Assembly: GCF_026210795.1 (NCBI RefSeq)
Contig: NC_089429.1
Span: 2,418,001-2,482,000, forward strand
Length of the DNA stretch: 64,000 bases
Origin: Rhizophagus irregularis
Lineage: Eukaryota > Glomeromycota > Glomeromycetes > Glomerales > Glomeraceae
Reading direction: 5' to 3'
In this document: piece by piece, positions 17,831 to 30,480 of the stretch
How the letters are laid out: each line of letters begins with the position of its first letter
Numbering within the stretch: position 1 is the first letter of the stretch
Notes under the pieces: model-generated
What the model saw: only the letters and a program-made list of their open reading frames with translations
Databases searched by the model: none
What the model was told of the DNA's origin: nothing
Position numbers and translations under genes: made by a program

Positions 17831-19335
17831 AGTTGTAAAAAGTGGAAATGAAATTATAGATGAATTTATATCTGAAAAAAGGTTAAAATGGATTCCTTAT
17901 TATGAATTTAGAAGTGTTGAATATCTTGATGAAGGAGGATTTGGTACTATATACAGAGCTATTTGGCAAGATAATTATATTGATAGGGACGTAATTCTTA
18001 AATGTCACAAAAATTTAAATGAAAATTTAAATGAATTTTTAAATGAAGTATGATAGTATATTATTTATTTATTTGTTTAAATTAATTTATTTATACTAAT
18101 AGACTATATTATTATTTATAGTGGAAATATCATGAAAGTTGTTTAGATTCAAATTATATTATTTATTTTTATGGATTTACAGAAAATCCAGATACTTTAA
18201 AATATATGGCAGTAATGGATTATGCAAGCAAAGGTAATTTAAGAGGAAATTTGATAGAAATAATCAAAAATAATTGGAACCGAAAATTATATATGTTATA
18301 TGAAATTATCTCTGGACTTAATAAGATACATGAACAAAAGCTTATTCATTGTGATTTTCATGATGGAAATATTTTAAATCATAATAATAAGGATAATGAT
18401 AAAATTTATATTAGTGATTTAGGATTATGTCGACCTGTAAAATCATTTTTGAAAAAGTATGATATTTATGGTGTTATACCATTTATGGCTCCTGAAATTT
18501 TAAGAGGCAAATCTTATACTCCAGCTAGTGATATATATAGCTTTTCTATGATTATGTGGGAATTTACATCTGGGGTACCACCATTTAATAATAAAGCACA
18601 TGATATTCATCTTAGTATAAGTATTTGTAAAGGTGAACGGCCTGAAATTATTGAAATACTCCACGATGTTATGTAGATTTGATGAAAATGAAGATCCATC
18701 AAAAAGGCCATCTACATCAGAAGTGAGAAACATTATTAGAAATTGGATTTTTTTTCCTCATTATTTGGATACTGAAGATCTTAATAAAGAATTTAAACGC
18801 ATTGTTATGCAATTTATAAATGCACCAATTGGACATCATAATGATCTTGCTATTGAATCTCATTCACAAGCATATTATACAAGTCGTTTACTTGATTTTA
18901 CTAGTAAACAATTGAATGAAATTCTTGAAAGTGAAGATTCACAAGCATGTTATGCAAGTTATTTTACTATTAATGAAACAGTAAATAAAAGGCCAGTTAG
19001 TGAAGATTTGGATGATTGTTTAATTAATGATATGAAATCATTAGGTATGTTATAGTGTACAATAAAAAAAAGTAATTTTGTAAATTATTTATATGGAATT
19101 GATTTTACTTATTTAATTATTTATAACAGATGAAAATACTAGTAAAAAATTGAATGAAAGAGAAGATTCACAAGCTAGTGTAAAAGTAAGTAAGTGAAGA
19201 TTTAAATGATTATATAATTAAAGAACTGAGATCATTATTAGGTATGTACTATAATATATAAAAAAAACTAATCTTGCAAATTATTTATGTGAAATTAATT
19301 TTATTTACTTAAATATTAAAACAGATGAAGATTAA
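17831..19335 (+). pseudogene. TKL protein kinase gene, 5'-truncated and frameshifted
   Basis: Exons: 17831-18047, 18122-19044, 19130-19241 and 19325-19335. The first carries SGNEIIDEFI, KWIPYYEF and the glycine loop YLDEGGFGTIYRAIW. The second carries the catalytic loop LIHCDFHDGNIL (HRD changed to HCD), ISDLGLCRPV in place of DFG, and FMAPEILRGKSYTPASDIYS. The intron at 18048 is at the same codon (after FLNE) as in the intact kinase at 32884. After GERPEIIE the frame shifts near 18655, and the CW part of the C-lobe motif before DPSKRP is missing. The last three exons join in phase 1 and the third looks like a decayed duplicate of the end of the second. The zinc-ribbon exon is absent. Likely a pseudogene unless the indels are assembly errors. 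Confidence 0.75.
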
Positions 19336-20439: not shown

Positions 20440-20714
20440 TTAAATACCCAAAACGGCGCTTATCGTAATACCGCAGCAGTGAAAAATAAAGAATGAAAAT
20501 AAAAAACTTTTTTTTTTAAAAATATTAGTAAAACTAGAAAAAATATTTAGAACTGAAAAAAAAAGAAATTGACACTTACTGTAGTAAGTGCAGCTCCTGA
20601 TTCATGAGTTCTCGATAACTAAGAGAAAAAATTTTTTAGTAAGGAAAATTAAAAAAAAAAAATCGTAACATGAGAATCGGCGCTTATCATGGTACCAGTA
20701 ATAAAAATAAACAG
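20440..20714. repeat. Degenerate array with GCTTATCA-TACCGCAGCAGTG motif, left part
   Basis: Recurring motif related to GCGCTTATCATAGTACCGCAG, seen near 20455, 20570 and 20683, each followed by an A-rich stretch. The array continues on the far side of the retrotransposon near 30205, 30325 and 30405, so the element inserted into a pre-existing repeat array. Confidence 0.55.
20711..20714. repeat. Target-site duplication ACAG, left
   Basis: ACAG immediately precedes the LTR at 20715 and is repeated at 30189-30192 after the other LTR. With the ambiguous adjoining A it could be counted as AACAG. Confidence 0.75.
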
Positions 20715-21336
20715 TGTAACACCTGAGCCCATAGAGAATTATGTTTGCCACCTCAGGTATTAACAAAATGACTCTTTATTAATAATATAAATAAATACAA
20801 TAATATGCTTGGTTTAATAACATTAAATAACAAAATAAATAATTCATAACAAAATTCGTCTAATTTCTCCCAAAAGGTGATCTTCACGCCCTTTTATGTT
20901 TGTTTTTGTGTAACTAAATTCATAATTTCAATTCATGGATTTAAATTATTAAAGTATTTCCATTGTTTTTAAAGTATTTCCATTGTTTTAAAGTATTTCC
21001 ATTATCTTAATTTTGTATCCATTTGATCATCATAAACTCCTGAATTATGATTTATAATATTAACGTAGTGATCAACAAATTAATCACTTGACACCTCAGA
21101 TCACTTGATTTCATGCAATTTAGTATCTTTCTGATCTTCATTTATCCTTAATTCTCGTGACTAATAGTTTAAGGTCATCACGGACCAATTACCTTAATCC
21201 ATGTGATTATTAGTTTAACGACTTCTCGGTCCAATTAAAATAAAAATAAAAATAAGTTAAAATTTTATACACTAAGACTAAATGTAATACTGCGCCTCAC
21301 AATTAATAAATTTACTAGATATACTACGGCATTACA
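20715..21336 (-). repeat. 3' LTR (sense orientation minus)
   Basis: 622 bp, TGTAAC... to ...GCATTACA on the plus strand, identical by eye to 29567-30188. It contains three tandem copies of AAAGTATTTCCATT (about 20960-21005) and the AT-rich TTAATAATATAAATAAATAC stretch. Confidence 0.95.
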
Positions 21337-21658: not shown

Positions 21659-22900
21659 TCATTTACTCATCGGTGTATGGTAAGTCTTTAATAGTTCTCC
21701 ATTTACAGGTGTTTTCTTGATTACACCCTTAATATCTTTAATTTTGTAGGCTCCGTTTGGTAGTATTTCATGAATGTAAAATGGTCCCAACCATTTTGAT
21801 TCCAATTTTCCAGATAATTGTTGTGCTTTGGCTTTATCATAGAGTAGTATTTTATCTCCAATTCCAAAGGTGTGTTCTTTGATTATTTTTCTGTCATGAT
21901 ACTCTTTTTGTTTTATTTGAGATTTCAATATTTGTTCTTTGGCTTCATGTCGGATTTTTGGTAGTTCTTCTAATAATCCAACTATTCTATCACTTAGGTT
22001 AATTTCTTTGATATTTTCATCCATTACTGTCCGTACATTTCTTCCAACATCATTCAGCATATTTTCCCAATAATATTTATCTTTTAAATTATCATAAGTA
22101 CTTTTGATTCCCATATGTGCCGATAATTCATGACTGTGAGCTAAATATAGTGCTCCCATCTTTTCAAAGTCTTCTATTATTCTTATGTTTTTACCATTTT
22201 TCTCAATATGCTTTTTACCATCAGTTACTCTGATGTTATCCTTAATTTCAACATTTTTAACCTCTATTGGTGGTTTATCTCCATCTAATTCTATTACTTT
22301 ATTATATACTCTTTCCCAATCTGTGTCATTATTCGATATTTTAATATTAGCATATTTTTCTCCTTCGTAAATATCTTGACATTCTTTAAATGATTTCACC
22401 ATTTCCATATATCTTTCTTCATTTAACAATGGGTATGATGTTTTATGTCCTTGATCCTTTTTCGAATATTCTCTACCTTTGTAATTTTCCCAACATTTTT
22501 CATTTTCTAAAAATATCACCATTGATTCATCAATTATCCTTTTGTTCCTAAATACTTCCTTCTCTAATAGGTGGTTCTCATATCTTGTTATGTATCCTCT
22601 GTCGAATGATGGTGTTTGTTGATAAAAGTACTCACTATAGGGACTTTTATCTAATATTAACCAATCCTCATTATCATGTTCTTCCATTCTCCTGTTGATT
22701 TGTTCGACAACTTCCTTCCTGAATTCCCATTCTATACCTTTCTTTGGTATTTTATACTTATCATTGTCCTCTCTTCTCCTTTTAAAGGTGTTAAACCTCA
22801 CACTTTGTCCTACTTTTTCAAATTCTTTTATAAGTTTATTTACAATGAATGTTTTTCCAGTACCATCAACTCCACATATGATTATTATTTTAGGTCCCAT
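21659..22900 (-). CDS. Thymidylate-kinase-like P-loop kinase fused to integrase lacking its core
   Basis: 413 residues. Residues 1-210 look like a nucleoside/nucleotide kinase. They have a short beta strand and Walker A GVDGTGKT (10-17), then DWLILDKSPYSEYFYQ (about 80-95), resembling the DR-x-SE motif of thymidylate/deoxynucleoside kinases with Lys for Arg, and a basic lid-like stretch with KGREYSKK. Residues about 255-290 match the first half of a retroviral-type integrase zinc finger (HSHELSAHMGIKST, YYWENML) but the CxxC pair is missing. The D,D-35-E core is absent: the sequence goes straight to the post-core region (QKEYHDRK, FGIGDKILLYDKA, LESKWLGPFYIHEILPNGAY, VNGELLKTYH). The kinase may supply dTTP or other dNTPs for reverse transcription (inference). 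The frame is open about 75 nt upstream of the ATG and overlaps the end of RT by about 33 nt, so translation may be by -1 frameshift or internal initiation. Confidence 0.85.
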   Translation of the reverse strand: MGPKIIIICGVDGTGKTFIVNKLIKEFEKVGQSVRFNTFKRRREDNDKYKIPKKGIEWEFRKEVVEQINRRMEEHDNEDWLILDKSPYSEYFYQQTPSFDRGYITRYENHLLEKEVFRNKRIIDESMVIFLENEKCWENYKGREYSKKDQGHKTSYPLLNEERYMEMVKSFKECQDIYEGEKYANIKISNNDTDWERVYNKVIELDGDKPPIEVKNVEIKDNIRVTDGKKHIEKNGKNIRIIEDFEKMGALYLAHSHELSAHMGIKSTYDNLKDKYYWENMLNDVGRNVRTVMDENIKEINLSDRIVGLLEELPKIRHEAKEQILKSQIKQKEYHDRKIIKEHTFGIGDKILLYDKAKAQQLSGKLESKWLGPFYIHEILPNGAYKIKDIKGVIKKTPVNGELLKTYHTPMSK

Positions 22901-22935
22901 TTTATTTTTGAAAAGTAACTCTTTTACCCATCTAT

Positions 22936-24417
22936 TTATATTATTCTTGATAAGGCATCTGCATTTTTATTTTCTTTTCCTGGTCTATGGGTTATTTCAA
23001 AATCATACTGTTCTAATTCCATGACCCATCTTGATCTCTTTCCTTTTGGTACTTTTGCAGTCATCAATCCTTTCAAAGCTGCATGGTCTGTCACTACTTC
23101 AAATTTTCTATTGATCAAGTATTTATGGAAATGTTGTATTCCCCATACAATTGCATAACATTCTTGTTCAGTTATTGGCCATCTTTGTTCTGTCCTGTTT
23201 AAACTTTTACTGGCATATTCTATTACGTATTCTTGACCTTTATCATCTTTTTGAGCTAACACTGCCCCTAATCCTATTCCTGAAGCATCTGTAATTAATA
23301 TAAATTTCCTTAACCAATCTGGTTGTCTTAACACCGGTTCTTCGGTTAATTTCCTTTTTAATATTTCTAATGCTTCATGTTGTTTGATGCCCCATTCAAA
23401 CTTTTCATCTTTTCTCAATAAAGATGTTATTGGTTTTACTATTTTTGAAAAATCTTTAATAAATTTTCTATAATACGTACATAACCCCAATATTGACCTT
23501 ACACCTTTTATATTTATAGGTGCTGTTAATTTTTGAATCTTTTCAACCTTTCCTGGACTTGGTTTTAATCCATTTTTACCAACTACATGTCCTAAAAATT
23601 CTATTTCTGTTTTTCCAAATATACATTTCTTTAACTTTAGTATTAAACTGGCTTCCTTTAATTTTTCTAACACTAACTTTATATGTTTTAGGTGGTCTTC
23701 AAAATTTTCCGAATATATCATTATATCATCAATGTATACTATCACAAATTCGTTTAGGTACTCCTTTAATACTTTATCCATTAACCTTTGAAAACTTGCA
23801 GGTGCATTTGTTAACCCAAATGGCATGACATTATATTCATATAATCCTGCTGAGCATATGAATGCTGTTTTCTCAATATCTTCCTCAGCCATTTCTATCT
23901 GATTAAACCCTGATGCTAAATCTAGACTGGTAAACCATTTTCCTGAACTTATCCTTTCTAATTGTTCATCAATCCTCGGTAATGGATATGCATCTGTTAT
24001 TGTAACTTTATTTAATTTTCTATAGTCGATGCAAAATCTATAATTTCCCGACTTTTTCCCTGCCAAAGTCACTGGTGAAGACCATGGACTTCTAGATTCT
24101 CTAATTTTTCCCAATTTTAACATCTCGTCAACCTCTTTTCTGATGAATTTACCTTTTTCATCATTTTCTTTGTACCTCTTTTGGGCTATTGGTTCAGTAC
24201 CCCCTTTTAATCTGATTTCATGTTTTACTAGGTTTGTCCTATTATATTTTTCACCATCGTACTCAAATATATCCTTATATTTTTCTACTAATACTTTTAA
24301 TTTACCTTTTTGTTCATTGGTTATGTCCCCTACTTTAAATTTTTCAGTAAATTTTTCATGGTCACTTTTGTGCTTCTTTATCGTCTCTTCAGTATCATTC
24401 TGACCAAGACTTATACT
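22936..24417 (-). CDS. pol: Reverse transcriptase - RNase H (pol)
   Basis: 493 codons are open from 24417; the first in-frame ATG (24123) lies inside the RT domain, so the protein must be made as a fusion with the preceding protease frame. RT motifs: SPWSSPVTLAGKKSG, FCIDYRKLN, PRIDEQLE, FTSLDLASGFNQI, FGLTNAPASFQRLM, the catalytic FVIVYIDDIMIY, and FLGHVVGKNGL. RNase H: ITDASGIGLGAVLAQ, QECYAIVWGIQHFHKYL, VTDHAALKGL, and the terminal NADALSR. All the catalytic landmarks of an active Ty3/gypsy RT and RNase H are present. The frame is -1 relative to the protease; the protease stop (24413-24411) and the opening of this frame (after a stop at 24420-24418) overlap by only a few nucleotides. Confidence 0.95.
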   Translation of the reverse strand, partial: SISLGQNDTEETIKKHKSDHEKFTEKFKVGDITNEQKGKLKVLVEKYKDIFEYDGEKYNRTNLVKHEIRLKGGTEPIAQKRYKENDEKGKFIRKEVDEMLKLGKIRESRSPWSSPVTLAGKKSGNYRFCIDYRKLNKVTITDAYPLPRIDEQLERISSGKWFTSLDLASGFNQIEMAEEDIEKTAFICSAGLYEYNVMPFGLTNAPASFQRLMDKVLKEYLNEFVIVYIDDIMIYSENFEDHLKHIKLVLEKLKEASLILKLKKCIFGKTEIEFLGHVVGKNGLKPSPGKVEKIQKLTAPINIKGVRSILGLCTYYRKFIKDFSKIVKPITSLLRKDEKFEWGIKQHEALEILKRKLTEEPVLRQPDWLRKFILITDASGIGLGAVLAQKDDKGQEYVIEYASKSLNRTEQRWPITEQECYAIVWGIQHFHKYLINRKFEVVTDHAALKGLMTAKVPKGKRSRWVMELEQYDFEITHRPGKENKNADALSRII

Positions 24418-24953: not shown

Positions 24954-27900
24954 ATCTGTTTGTGGATACCTTCTCATACCATCATAATATATTTTTCTTT
25001 GTTCTGGGCTCATATCTATAATTTGTGAAAAAGTTGCATTTGCTCTGGTACTTTTCATATCCTCTAATACGTTATATTTTGGTATATTTCTTTGAAATGC
25101 GCTTGTCCTATGAATACCTTCAACACGTTCATTTTTACATTGTTTTGCATAGTGACCTCTTTCTCCACAATTTCCACATGTATTATTATTTCTCCTTGCT
25201 TCTTGTGCTTTTTTCAGACTTTCATCAGTGAATCCTCTTTTTGGTAATGCTGCTGCCCTTTCCTCTTGGCTTGCATATTTATTATTCCTTCTTCGTGCTT
25301 GTTCTTGATCAATTTCCATATCTATATCTCGATCACTTGACCTATTTTTTATGTTACTTCTCGTTTGTCTTTCACCAGTATAAAAATCTTGATCAACATG
25401 GTTAAATGTTACATCATTATCTTGATAATACGGGTCGTCATAACTATATCCTTGATCATAATTATCCTGATAATCCTGACTATCATAATCATATTGGTCA
25501 TATTGGTCATTATAATTATCATATTCCACTACATTGAATCCTCGATTATTGTTTTGGTGGTTTGGTGGTCTGTTATAGTTATTTGGTCTTCCATTATAGT
25601 TATTTGATCTTCTGTTATAATTTTGATTATTCGGTCTTCCATAGTTTCTTTGACCATTATTTACCCTACATTCATTTGCATAATGTCCTGGTTGTTTACA
25701 ATTATAACATGCTCGAGGTGGTGGTCCTTGTCTATTATTATTGTTTGGTGGTCTCTTTTGCCCTCCAAGTTGATTTACTAGTTTTACCTCTAATTTTTTA
25801 AACATGTCGGCAAGGTCATCCTCATAATTTTTCTCCAATGGTTTTTCAAATATATTCTTTGGCTTGTCATCTTGTATATCGATTCCTTTTCTTTGGGTAC
25901 TAACTGATATACCACGTGTCTTTCTTATTAATTCATTAGTAGCTTCCTCCTCTCTTCTTGCTGTATTCACTGCATCATTTAAATTTGCTGGGTTTTGTCT
26001 TCTGACTTGATATCCCAATGTTGGTGTTAATCCTTCGATATAATTATCCACTTGTAATTCATCATCTAATGCATGGCCTCTGGTAGCTATCCTTAATATT
26101 TGTCTAAACCTTATCGTATATGCCTCAACATTTTCATTTACTCCTTGTGTTATTTTCCTTAATTCTAACATTTTCCTTTTTCTAACATCTTCCCTGGTAA
26201 ATCTTTGTTTAATCCTATGTTTTAAATCATTATCATTATCGTTATCTTGCCAATTTACCAAATGACCATTGTTTGCTTCCTTCTTTTCATTATACCATTG
26301 TGCTGCTGCACCTTTCAAACAGGTAGCTGCCATTGCTGCTTGTCTAGCTCCATTTACTCCTGCTGCTTTTCCTATGGCAGTAAATGCTGTTTCAAATTGT
26401 CTTACCCAATCATTAACATCTTCTTCTTCCTTTCCATAAAATTGTGGCATACTAATTATTCCTCCAGCTACATTCCCTGCATCCTCAATTGCATTTGCTA
26501 ATGGGTTGGCTGCGACTAATCCAGCCCAATTACCTCCTATATCATGTCCTGTTGCTGCTAGTAAAGCCGCTCTAAAATCTTCCCTTACTTCAGCTCTTGT
26601 TGCTCCCATAATTATTGGTACTATTGGTGGGATTGGTGGTATCGGTGGTGTTATAGGTGTTTCAAATAAATTTTCTATATTATAATCAGATATTTCACTT
26701 TTATCCTCAGAGTTTGATTCTGAACTTTCACTTGAGTCAAAACCAGGTCTATTTATAATGTTTTCTTCATAAGGTTCTTCAAAGTTTTCATTGTTATCGG
26801 TTTCATTTGGATTTAAAATTTCTCCATCTTTTCCAGATCCATCTGATTCTTTTTCAGATCCATCAGATTTTTCATTATCAGATTCATTTCCACTACTTTC
26901 ACTATCCTCAATTCCAGCTTGCTGTTTTAGAAATTTATTTAATATCCGCCTTAAATTTTTCTCCAATTCATTTTTATTTCCTTGGAATATTTCAATAAAT
27001 TCTTGATCCAATATTTCTCCATCAGTATATCCCATACTGATTAACCTCAATAACTCTCCATTAGTTATTTCTATTTTATTATCATCACATATTTGTTTTA
27101 ATCTTTTGACCCTGATATCAATTTCATTCTCGTCATTCTCACAATCCCTACACTTGGTTTTTCCTTCGTCAAATTTATTGTTTATCCATCTTATTCCACA
27201 TTCATTACAAAATGTGGTATTTTCATTTATCCATTCATATAATTTTATCCTTAATTCTTTGTCATTCTTATCCATTTCCTGGAAATATTTTTCTATAAAT
27301 TCTGTTGTTAATATCATACTATTGCTTATCCTGAATTTTCTCATTCTCTCTATTTCTGACACATTTAATTCGTATCCTAATTTTTCTAAGTCATCCTTTA
27401 ATTTTAATAATTCTTTTTGTTCGCAATTTTTACATTGTCCAATGTCTGCTATCATATCAGGTAACTTTCTATTTCTACAATTTCCACATATTAATGTTTC
27501 TTTTGTTAACCATTCATTTATTTCATCTTTTAATTTTTTATCACTTAGTCCCATTAATTCGAAAAATGTACCTAAAAAGTCTTCTGTTAATATCAATTCT
27601 ATCCTTATCCTTAGGTCCCACATTCTTTGTATATCCTTGTCAGTGAACCTTCCACCCATTTCTTCAATTTTTCTTTTTAATGATTCTACTGTCCATTCGA
27701 CATCATCCTCTATTTTTATTTCATAATGTATACTACCATCACTGTCCTCTAATTCATAACTTTCAGGACTATCACTTTCTGGGTCCTCAGGTTCCCTTGT
27801 AAATTGTTTGGTATCAATAAATCTTTGTACTATTTTTTGTATATATCTATCCCACCTCTGGTTCTGTTCCTTTATTGATAACCATGGTTCTTCGTAATCA

Positions 27901-28538
27901 ATACTTGTTATTAAGTACACTATTTCATCTTCTCCTAATTCGATTATTCTTTCTTCCACGTATAACAATTTTCTAAATTGTGTTATTGCACCTGGTGCTA
28001 CATACTTTGCTTTCGTATCATTTTCTAATATTGTGTTATACCATTCCCAAAATTTTTGAAATCTATTTTCAACATCCCAGTCTTCTAAAATATATCCATG
28101 TTCCATTATTTCTGGGCATCCAATTAATCGATCAAATACCTCATTTTCTAGATTCCCTTCAATACAATCCCTTACAATTACTACCATTATTATTCTCAAA
28201 CCTTTTTCTTTCATTTTTGGTTGTTGTCTGTACCTTATTGATTCAATTATTCTGTCTACTATATTCCTACATTTTCCTTTATGTATTGTGTCCTCCCTTT
28301 CTCTATTGTCCATACTTAATAAATTCAATAATTCTTTATGTGTTACATTATTGTACATTAGTATTGTATCCTCGAATTTAAACAAAGCATCCCAAAATTT
28401 CTTGAATGCCGTTGATACTTCTCTTTCTATTGGGTTACATATTTCACATGCTAAACATTCCTCTGGTTCTATCACTCCTAGGTCATGTTCTTGTTTATGG
28501 TTTATATATTCAGCGTTCCAAACATGGTACCATTCCAT
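24951..28538 (-). CDS. gag: Very large Gag with N-terminal zinc-ribbon modules and two zinc knuckles
   Basis: 1195 residues, far longer than usual Ty3/gypsy Gag. Residues about 1-300 are acidic/helical and unrecognised. About 290-560 hold three related modules of about 90 residues (LKRKIEEMG..., LKDDLEKLG..., VKRLKQICD...). Modules 1 and 2 end in C-x2-C...C-x2-C ribbons (first Cys near 351 and 444). An S/E/D-rich linker and a proline run (PPIPPIPPI) follow. The retrotransposon Gag core starts near 697 (MPQFYGKEEEDVNDWVRQFE). There are two CCHC knuckles, CYNCKQPGHYANEC (944-957) and CGNCGERGHYAKQC (1121-1134), separated by an N/Y/D/Q-rich low-complexity stretch. The core and knuckles should assemble the particle and bind RNA; the role of the N-terminal half is unknown. 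Confidence 0.9.
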   Translation of the reverse strand: MEWYHVWNAEYINHKQEHDLGVIEPEECLACEICNPIEREVSTAFKKFWDALFKFEDTILMYNNVTHKELLNLLSMDNREREDTIHKGKCRNIVDRIIESIRYRQQPKMKEKGLRIIMVVIVRDCIEGNLENEVFDRLIGCPEIMEHGYILEDWDVENRFQKFWEWYNTILENDTKAKYVAPGAITQFRKLLYVEERIIELGEDEIVYLITSIDYEEPWLSIKEQNQRWDRYIQKIVQRFIDTKQFTREPEDPESDSPESYELEDSDGSIHYEIKIEDDVEWTVESLKRKIEEMGGRFTDKDIQRMWDLRIRIELILTEDFLGTFFELMGLSDKKLKDEINEWLTKETLICGNCRNRKLPDMIADIGQCKNCEQKELLKLKDDLEKLGYELNVSEIERMRKFRISNSMILTTEFIEKYFQEMDKNDKELRIKLYEWINENTTFCNECGIRWINNKFDEGKTKCRDCENDENEIDIRVKRLKQICDDNKIEITNGELLRLISMGYTDGEILDQEFIEIFQGNKNELEKNLRRILNKFLKQQAGIEDSESSGNESDNEKSDGSEKESDGSGKDGEILNPNETDNNENFEEPYEENIINRPGFDSSESSESNSEDKSEISDYNIENLFETPITPPIPPIPPIVPIIMGATRAEVREDFRAALLAATGHDIGGNWAGLVAANPLANAIEDAGNVAGGIISMPQFYGKEEEDVNDWVRQFETAFTAIGKAAGVNGARQAAMAATCLKGAAAQWYNEKKEANNGHLVNWQDNDNDNDLKHRIKQRFTREDVRKRKMLELRKITQGVNENVEAYTIRFRQILRIATRGHALDDELQVDNYIEGLTPTLGYQVRRQNPANLNDAVNTARREEEATNELIRKTRGISVSTQRKGIDIQDDKPKNIFEKPLEKNYEDDLADMFKKLEVKLVNQLGGQKRPPNNNNRQGPPPRACYNCKQPGHYANECRVNNGQRNYGRPNNQNYNRRSNNYNGRPNNYNRPPNHQNNNRGFNVVEYDNYNDQYDQYDYDSQDYQDNYDQGYSYDDPYYQDNDVTFNHVDQDFYTGERQTRSNIKNRSSDRDIDMEIDQEQARRRNNKYASQEERAAALPKRGFTDESLKKAQEARRNNNTCGNCGERGHYAKQCKNERVEGIHRTSAFQRNIPKYNVLEDMKSTRANATFSQIIDMSPEQRKIYYDGMRRYPQTD

Positions 28539-28822
28539 TTTTAATAAAATTCTCTAAAAATTTTCACATCTTTTACTTTTTATCCTTCTTTTATATTTTA
28601 TTTGACCTATACTGGGCTTGCCTTTACCTCATTTGTTCATTACTGAGTATGGTAGTTTACAGGTTTGTACAAATAAATTTACATTTTCCTTGAAATTCCC
28701 AACCTAAAGTTGGAATGTGATTCCATATTTGATTCATCTCTTTCCTGTAATTTTCTCATATTTGTCCAGCAAACATTATTTTAATTTTTGTTAACGTTAA
28801 TCATGATTTTTCTTGGGTACCC

Positions 28823-28967
28823 TCACACAGAATTGTTTTTGGAAGTTCACACAGAACTATTCTCAATTGATCACACAGAATACCTCAATTGAGTTCACAC
28901 AGAAAAAGCTCACACCGAACTATTCTCAATTGATCACACAGAAAACCTCAATTGAGTTCACACAGAA
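28823..28967 (-). repeat. TCACACAGAA direct repeats in the leader
   Basis: Seven copies of TCACACAGAA (six exact, one TCACACCGAA) at 28823, 28847, 28871, 28895, 28910, 28934 and 28958. A 63-bp segment containing CTATTCTCAATTGATCACAC and CCTCAATTGAGT is tandemly duplicated, giving the 63-bp spacing between copies 2/5, 3/6 and 4/7. Confidence 0.9.
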
Positions 28968-29460: not shown

Positions 29461-29576
29461 TGATCACGTGGGGGTGATCATTTTCTTTTCTCAGAGATCC
29501 TATACTTATAACCTGTAGTGATCATGTGAGGATGATCACTTTTCCTTTCTCGGAGCATGCACCACTTGTAACACCT
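29461..29576 (-). repeat. 58-bp tandem duplication spanning PBS and LTR edge
   Basis: Unit 1 starts TGATCACGTGGGGGTGATCA at 29461; unit 2 starts TGATCATGTGAGGATGATCA at 29519. Unit 2 contains the PBS and the LTR start (TTGTAACACCTGAG), and unit 1 has diverged counterparts (TCTCAGAGATCC, TATAACCTGTAG). It is a duplicated, decayed PBS/LTR border. Confidence 0.7.
29549..29564 (-). other. Primer binding site
   Basis: On the sense strand the 5' LTR ends GTTACA, followed by AG and then TGGTGCATGCTCCGAG. TGG is the complement of a tRNA CCA end, and the predicted primer 3' end is CTCGG-AGCATGC-A-CCA. I cannot name the tRNA with certainty; the fragment at 21380 shows matching ends and is Gly-like. 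Confidence 0.8.
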
Positions 29577-30188
29577 GAGCCCATAGAGAATTATGTTTGC
29601 CACCTCAGGTATTAACAAAATGACTCTTTATTAATAATATAAATAAATACAATAATATGCTTGGTTTAATAACATTAAATAACAAAATAAATAATTCATA
29701 ACAAAATTCGTCTAATTTCTCCCAAAAGGTGATCTTCACGCCCTTTTATGTTTGTTTTTGTGTAACTAAATTCATAATTTCAATTCATGGATTTAAATTA
29801 TTAAAGTATTTCCATTGTTTTTAAAGTATTTCCATTGTTTTAAAGTATTTCCATTATCTTAATTTTGTATCCATTTGATCATCATAAACTCCTGAATTAT
29901 GATTTATAATATTAACGTAGTGATCAACAAATTAATCACTTGACACCTCAGATCACTTGATTTCATGCAATTTAGTATCTTTCTGATCTTCATTTATCCT
30001 TAATTCTCGTGACTAATAGTTTAAGGTCATCACGGACCAATTACCTTAATCCATGTGATTATTAGTTTAACGACTTCTCGGTCCAATTAAAATAAAAATA
30101 AAAATAAGTTAAAATTTTATACACTAAGACTAAATGTAATACTGCGCCTCACAATTAATAAATTTACTAGATATACTACGGCATTACA
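29567..30188 (-). repeat. 5' LTR (sense orientation minus)
   Basis: 622 bp, identical by eye to 20715-21336. It should contain the element's promoter and transcription start. Confidence 0.95.
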
Positions 30189-30480
30189 ACAGAAAAAAAA
30201 ATATCAACCGGGGAGATCACTATAGTACCGCAGCAGTGAAAATGTCGTTGGATCTGCGAGTCTCTGATCCTAAAAGTACGAAAAGAAAAAATTAAAAAAA
30301 AAACAATTATTTTGAAATGAAAATTAGCGCTTAATATAGTACCGTAGTAAACACTAAATATGTCAATCTTAAAAGAAGTTAAATTAAATATTAAAAAAAA
30401 AGCAAATCAGTGCTTATCATTTCACTGCAGCATCTCGATCGAACCCTGATCTGATCCTAAAAAGACGAAAAAAATATAAA
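30189..30480. repeat. TSD ACAG and right part of the degenerate array
   Basis: Starts with the ACAG duplication (30189-30192). It continues the motif array: AGTACCGCAGCAGTGAAAA near 30215, AGCGCTTAATATAGTACCG near 30327 and AGTGCTTATCATTTCACTGC near 30407, each followed by A-rich sequence. Confidence 0.55.

Follow-up and report, generated by a model that had tools for sequence, protein, structure and literature searches.

Why does a Ty3/gypsy retrotransposon carry a nucleotide-kinase-like domain in the middle of its pol region? The question arises from the window analyzed here, a stretch of 64,000 nucleotides (nt) of Rhizophagus irregularis (contig NC_089429.1, positions 2,418,001 to 2,482,000), in which an open reading frame (ORF) of 413 codons on the minus strand (21659-22900), starting with MGPKIIIICGVDGTGKT, joins a P-loop kinase to integrase sequence. 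The ORF is real. The initial annotation had placed the motif GVDGTGKT at residues 10-17 and DKSPYSEYFYQ near residue 85, and they lie at 10-17 and 84-94; the zinc finger and C-terminal sequence of integrase that it read behind the kinase are also there, the former as Integrase_H2C2 (residues 251-290), the latter recognized by eye and through an SH3_Tf2-1 match with an E value of 0.11. Our answer, which we consider moderately probable, is that a Ty3/gypsy lineage of the Glomeraceae captured a P-loop kinase of the deoxynucleoside kinase/thymidylate kinase (dNK/TMPK) superfamily at the place where RNase H meets integrase and retains it as a functional component of pol, where it would supply deoxynucleoside triphosphates (dNTPs) for cDNA synthesis.

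The kinase is abundant and its position is conserved. A six-frame search of the genome (146.7 Mb in 32 contigs, window included) with the window domain returned at least 151 matches to the kinase, a count that includes fragments and split copies, and a query from a second subfamily likewise returned at least 151. Identity to the window domain was 89% or more in 36 of the listed rows (fragments among them) and 44-66% in the rest. From 347 candidate reverse transcriptases (RTs) we scored 105, every one with at least 65% identity, and 103 of them have a kinase on the same strand no more than 2 kb downstream, with spacings that recur: 19 nt (44 cases), 269 (19), 232 (15) and 244 (7). For the two remaining RTs the next kinase is 4.4 and 15.3 kb away, which is most simply explained by later insertions. 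Wherever both sides could be read, in the loci L035 to L038 (4/4) and in those of the window type, RNase H precedes the kinase and integrase follows it. The single chimera that the initial annotation named as a refuting outcome is not what we see. An integrase pattern was found inside the fetched flanks of 54 of 64 kinase loci, a set in which L036 and L050 are the same place. The sister family looks different, with a kinase within 5 kb of none of its 22 RTs; L069, one of its members, reads RNase H, ca. 200 nt and integrase, with the kinase not present, and L070, in which the RT-RNase H frame is broken, is without kinase too. The empty site could also mark a loss instead of the state before capture, if the ancestor of the whole group already had the kinase and the L069 family lost it. 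We consider this rather doubtful: the weak joining of L069 to the outgroups in the RT tree (53) speaks for it, but no kinase is found among the matches listed, which are lower bounds, near the more distant families L071 and L072.

The way in which the kinase is joined to its neighbors varies among subfamilies. L035 to L038 have RT-RNase H and kinase in one ORF, followed by integrase in a separate one (in L037 and L038 the frames are broken elsewhere); RNase H joins the kinase almost directly in the 706 type and through a linker of ca. 85 residues in the 777 and 779 types. One element of the 779 type has, in addition, a 117-residue ORF between kinase and integrase (L036:4976-5326, plus strand) that matched no Pfam family above cut-off. 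The window type is organized the other way, with the kinase fused to integrase and RT-RNase H separate. Among its 30 fetched loci, 29 could be evaluated (L032 was left out), and the kinase-integrase ORF is open over 600-615 codons in 19, broken in the integrase part in nine and shortened in the window copy. RNase H ends ca. 270 nt before the kinase start in 21 of these 29 loci. In L007 and others this spacer, which L009 has too, holds a short ORF of ca. 80 codons overlapping the kinase ATG, which has been lost from the window copy (22901-22935), L021 and L029. An intron at this place was considered and rejected, since the stretch missing in L005, L021 and L029 lacks a GT start (by eye).

Both sequence profiles and the predicted structure place the domain in the dNK/TMPK superfamily. 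The phrog_761 "thymidylate kinase" profile matches all 23 aligned family members, and the window domain with an E value of 9.5e-13 over residues 3-195; this profile is broad and also matches the PF01712 dNK of the genome (2.4e-17) and 14 of 14 control genomes. A profile alignment with that dNK (L073) gave a probability of 96.9 over 182 columns. Residues 1-208 were modeled as a P-loop kinase of dNK/TMPK type with a predicted local distance difference test score (pLDDT) of 86, as the initial annotation had anticipated, and the 50 structural matches listed are solely nucleoside and thymidylate kinases, spanning 176-202 residues. The label "thymidylate-kinase-like" stands as far as the superfamily, through profile and fold; as to the thymidylate type itself, the model fits dCK-type and TMPK-type folds equally well. 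In Pfam, PF01712 is absent among matches at E values up to 1 for the window ORF, and the window domain is below the curated cut-off of PF02223, which is precomputed on several relatives. The P-loop, DKSPY and LID-like residues are invariant in the 23 members, some of which share no more than 51-65% identity with the window domain. DKSPYSEYFYQ lies where TMPKs have DRY and dNKs have ERS. The catalytic glutamate of dNKs sits after the second strand, and T38 is opposite the L073 glutamate in one profile alignment (a single template).

The substitution pattern indicates that the kinase is under purifying selection. Pairwise ratios of nonsynonymous to synonymous substitutions (dN/dS) were computed on up to 150 pairs per comparison, excluding domains with stops or outside the search patterns. 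Those of the kinase (63 domains) were 0.05-0.21 within types and 0.09-0.26 between types; RT-RNase H (35 domains) gave 0.03 within and 0.15-0.27 between kinase-carrying types, and integrase (22 domains) 0.09 and 0.08-0.26, the between-type ratios being rough because dS is often near or above 1. Comparisons within types therefore show weaker constraint on the kinase than on RT-RNase H, at a level near that of integrase. Pairs with kinase-less elements gave 0.30-0.45 for RT-RNase H (L069) and 0.25-0.37 for integrase (L069 or L070). The P-loop GK[ST] is present in 62 of the 63 kinase domains, which had been selected with a pattern already requiring G[VI]D, and DKSPY in all 63; among 128 proteins collected from databases, a set with many partial sequences, 66 have all three tested motifs.

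The kinase also seems to move as a unit, and sequence comparison indicates that one lineage, the 779 type, has swapped it as a cassette, RT and integrase staying in place. Its RT is nearest to the 674 type (86-88% identity) and its integrase to the 777 type (90%), but its kinase is 88-90% identical to that of the 706 type and 65-68% to those of 777 and 674. Synonymous distances between 779 and 706 agree with the identities (0.54 in the kinase, 1.10 in RT-RNase H and 1.60 in integrase). Along the 779 ORF, residues 537-576, in the linker, are 85% identical to 777 and 78% to 674, and residues 577-615 are 64% identical to 777, 69% to 674 and 97% to 706, with residue 575 as the beginning of the kinase motif. 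Because the linker is absent from the 706 type, comparison with that type does not locate the breakpoint. In approximately unbiased (AU) tests, for groups named once the trees had been seen, grouping 779 with 706 was rejected by RT (p 4.5e-8) and by integrase (p 0.0013).

Protein searches (25, 100 and 34 matches) delimited a closed family, with R. irregularis, R. clarus, R. diaphanus and Glomus cerebriforme as the named species and mostly metagenome-derived sequences as the other members. G. cerebriforme belongs to the Glomeraceae, as does Rhizophagus. The kinases of P0001 and P0002 (Rhizophagus irregularis DAOM 181602/197198) are 98% and 97% identical to that of the window. Stand-alone metagenome ORFs of 264-265 residues (P0009, P0012, P0015, P0016, P0026 and P0029) could not be placed in contigs. 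Outside the family, the best matches that the protein collection yielded (2 of 100, E values of 0.066 and 0.076) are noise, in a word-filtered search that limits what such an absence means. Viral contigs gave 38 pattern matches and no confirmed relative. Sequence searches of phages gave no convincing relative (six records at E values of 0.2 or worse in one, zero in another), and a further one gave 17 records covering short parts only, several of them FtsY (best E value 4e-4). Foldseek against viral models found phage and large-virus kinases at 10-20% identity and no donor. As a pointer to a phage source phrog_761 was rejected, since it names the superfamily and hits the 14 control genomes. In the R. 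irregularis genome, L073 (G000:C28:1224011-1224604) is the one PF01712 match, in a 336-residue frame with a long N-terminal part of no recognized kind, and no match to the PF00265 thymidine kinase was found at E values up to 0.01.

Several results weigh against a captured, working nucleotide kinase. In Pfam, the window domain scores 27.0 of the 27 bits required for AAA_28 and 21.3 of 27 for Thymidylate_kin, at or below the cut-offs, and among the 23 members Thymidylate_kin (21) is accompanied by AAA_14 (19) and by AAA_28, KTI12 and NPHP3_N (17 each). Searches of the PDB put FtsY first, both with the single sequence (E value 0.0082, against 0.87 for TMK) and with the profile (2.6e-6 against 0.031). 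The top Foldseek matches have moderate TM-scores (0.52-0.67) and root mean square deviations of 4.5-6.6, D84-K85 stands in place of the usual D/E-R, and with no near relative outside the family neither source nor substrate can be read from kin. The host has TMPK-like exons and a dNK of its own. Constraint in the window type is weaker on the kinase than on RT-RNase H (0.107 versus 0.031), and the kinase itself did not reject the unswapped tree, with 779 beside 777 and 674 (AU test, p 0.059).

One alternative is a P-loop kinase with a different substrate (the 5' end of a nucleic acid, the tRNA primer or a protein, for example) that would aid strand transfer or integration and not the supply of dNTPs. 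The basic run K40-R41-R42-R43, invariant in the 23 aligned members, could bind a polyanion, and the fusion partners, integrase for the window type and RNase H elsewhere, are in keeping with such a role; we regard it as unlikely, given that the fold and the phage-profile matches, over 176-202 residues in the 50 matches listed, are those of nucleoside and nucleotide kinases. A structural or regulatory nucleotide-binding domain, positioning or activating RT or integrase without turnover, would accommodate a fusion partner that varies between RT-RNase H and integrase, but the invariance of P-loop, DKSPY and LID-like residues in members so divergent makes it very unlikely. A chance chimera, or a host gene family beside transposons, would be permitted by the window copy taken alone and is virtually excluded by the at least 151 kinase matches, the 103 of 105 RTs with a same-strand kinase at repeated spacing, the single ORFs with RT or integrase and the further species.

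We return to the reading of a captured kinase that serves dNTP supply. The dUTPase of retroviruses and of some LTR elements keeps uracil out of cDNA. The kinase is most likely a captured deoxynucleoside monophosphate (dNMP) or deoxynucleoside kinase that aids dNTP supply in parallel to such enzymes. Catalysis, substrate and benefit to the element are what we infer here. The kinase would be synthesized as a portion of the pol proteins, with RNase H as its partner in some subfamilies and integrase in that of the window, and would enter the virus-like particle or remain cytoplasmic. It would phosphorylate a deoxynucleotide or deoxynucleoside (the step from dTMP to dTDP is the one that we favor) and let cDNA form where or when the host supply of dNTPs is low. 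The idea of dNTP supply agrees with that of the initial annotation, whose "resting hyphae or spores" are speculative. We suggest more tentatively that the RT-RNase H-kinase ORF joins a dNMP kinase covalently to the replication enzymes, in which case cDNA synthesis in the particle might make part of its own dNTPs and be partly freed from the host cell cycle, the cassette being exchanged as a unit between subfamilies.

The window element itself (Table 1) has the structure of a Ty3/gypsy LTR (long terminal repeat) retrotransposon, with two LTRs, a target-site duplication and the order gag with zinc knuckles, protease, RT, RNase H and integrase. The same order is found in L035 and L036, and L037 and L038 are alike in the pol portion. 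The LTRs are identical at 624 of 624 positions compared, of which 622 were counted as LTR, and with the 4-bp ACAG flanks this identity marks a recent insertion. The integrase of this copy has lost its catalytic core by an in-frame deletion of 540 nt (413 versus 593 residues, blastn against L007), the ends of which share a 28-nt overlap of an imperfect repeat; the start of the core (motif DFVGPL) is present in 28 of the 29 evaluated window-type loci, the sole exception being the window copy. The short integrase of this copy reflects a real deletion at these imperfect repeats. Combined with the identical LTRs, the missing core indicates that this copy probably inserted with integrase supplied by another one. 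P0001, a database gene model, equals the window ORF in length but has a different junction, and may represent either a further deletion of this sort or a predicted splice.

Table 1. Features of the retrotransposon in the window and of its kinase-integrase ORF
Feature	Position	Strand	Basis or remark
5' LTR	29567..30188	-	624 consecutive positions identical to the 3' LTR, last 2 bases counted as target-site sequence
3' LTR	20715..21336	-	Same sequence as 5' LTR
Target-site repeat ACAG, left	20711..20714	.	Flank sequence; boundary placed by TGTAA...TTACA ends
Target-site repeat ACAG, right	30189..30192	.	Flank sequence
gag ORF, 1195 aa	24951..28538	-	Retrotrans_gag and two CCHC stretches; no family for the long N-terminal part
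Aspartic protease ORF, 175 aa	24411..24938	-	gag-asp_proteas, E 3.3e-7
RT-RNase H ORF, 395 aa counted from the listed ATG (frame open for 493 aa)	22936..24123	-	RVT_1 E 7.7e-42, RT_RNaseH E 2.2e-36
Kinase-integrase fusion ORF, 413 aa	21659..22900	-	ORF list and domain search
P-loop dNK/TMPK-type kinase domain, aa 1-215	22256..22900	-	Structure model (poor beyond aa 208), profile matches
P-loop GVDGTGKT, aa 10-17	22850..22873	-	G10, V11, D12, G15, K16 invariant in 23 aligned members
DKSPYSEYFYQ motif, aa 84-94	22619..22651	-	D84-Y88, Y91, Y93, Q94 invariant in 23 members
CWENYKGREYSK, aa 136-147, putative LID arginine region	22460..22495	-	C136, W137, N139, Y140, R143, E144, K147 invariant in 23 members
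Integrase zinc-binding domain H2C2 (aa 251-290), truncated at end	22031..22150	-	PF17921, E 6.1e-9
Junction of 540-nt in-frame deletion of integrase catalytic core	22018..22045	-	The two blastn alignments to L007 share 28 nt here
Integrase C-terminal SH3-like / GPY-F region	21737..21856	-	SH3_Tf2-1 weak, E 0.11, below cut-off; otherwise by eye

The first 713 residues of gag (26400-28538, minus strand) match no Pfam family above cut-off and contain repeated Cys clusters by eye. On the 5' side of gag a 62-nt repeat occurs three times (28819-28967), one copy being merely 63% alike. Directly after the 5' LTR, the minus strand at 29549-29566 begins with AGTGGTGCATGC, a candidate primer-binding site. 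Outside the element, protein-kinase-like ORFs in two frames (18206-19055, plus strand) perhaps belong to a member of an expanded kinase family (by eye).

A retroelement with an enzyme of deoxynucleotide metabolism is known; the enzyme, a kinase, and its place are new as far as the literature searched goes. Ty3/gypsy elements with dUTPase are described in the fungi Postia placenta (PosPlaTy3), Phanerochaete chrysosporium and Tuber melanosporum (PMC2864245); there too a deoxynucleotide-metabolism enzyme was taken up, at a variable position, and is assumed to aid replication where the host activity is absent, but it is a dUTPase, located N- or C-terminally in Pol or between protease and RT rather than between RNase H and integrase. 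Retroviral dUTPase can sit between RT and integrase (PMC5408684). LTR retrotransposons of bdelloid rotifers that carry dUTPase and ORF3 enzymes retain a metabolic enzyme domain in pol as well, differing in enzyme, host and position, theirs being between protease and RT (PMC5408684). The second RNase H of Tat, Chronos and Archon elements is another extra captured domain kept in Ty3/gypsy, probably gained repeatedly, but it doubles an existing activity and lies outside nucleotide metabolism (PMC5348765). In orchids, a Gypsy lineage captured and retained an AlkB-type demethylase, tested in vitro there, which differs in being an RNA demethylase in an extra ORF (PMC9289625). With dCK, dAK and thymidylate kinases the domain shares the fold, the P-loop, a D-K-S motif resembling (D,E)-R-S and a LID-like arginine, but it has only 12-19% identity to them (Foldseek top 50), no close sequence kin and a retroelement as carrier. 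We found no description of a retroelement kinase of this kind in the literature searched, which left most subscription papers and the repeat databases outside. In the passages covered from papers on R. irregularis transposons, "kinase" refers to other kinases, and the word is absent from the main text of a survey of fungal LTR elements and of a review of giant transposons.

The finding affects annotation, since many records of the family are named as stand-alone "thymidylate kinase", "integrase core domain protein" or similarly, and in the R. irregularis genome the kinase is part of a retroelement. Its good preservation across many copies suggests that certain retrotransposons come equipped to assist in making DNA precursors. 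If the kinase is indeed kept for this purpose, it would represent, beside dUTPase, another and independent solution to limited dNTP supply. It would also offer a system for testing, in multinucleate hyphae that are slow or do not divide, whether retrotransposition is limited by the synthesis of precursors.
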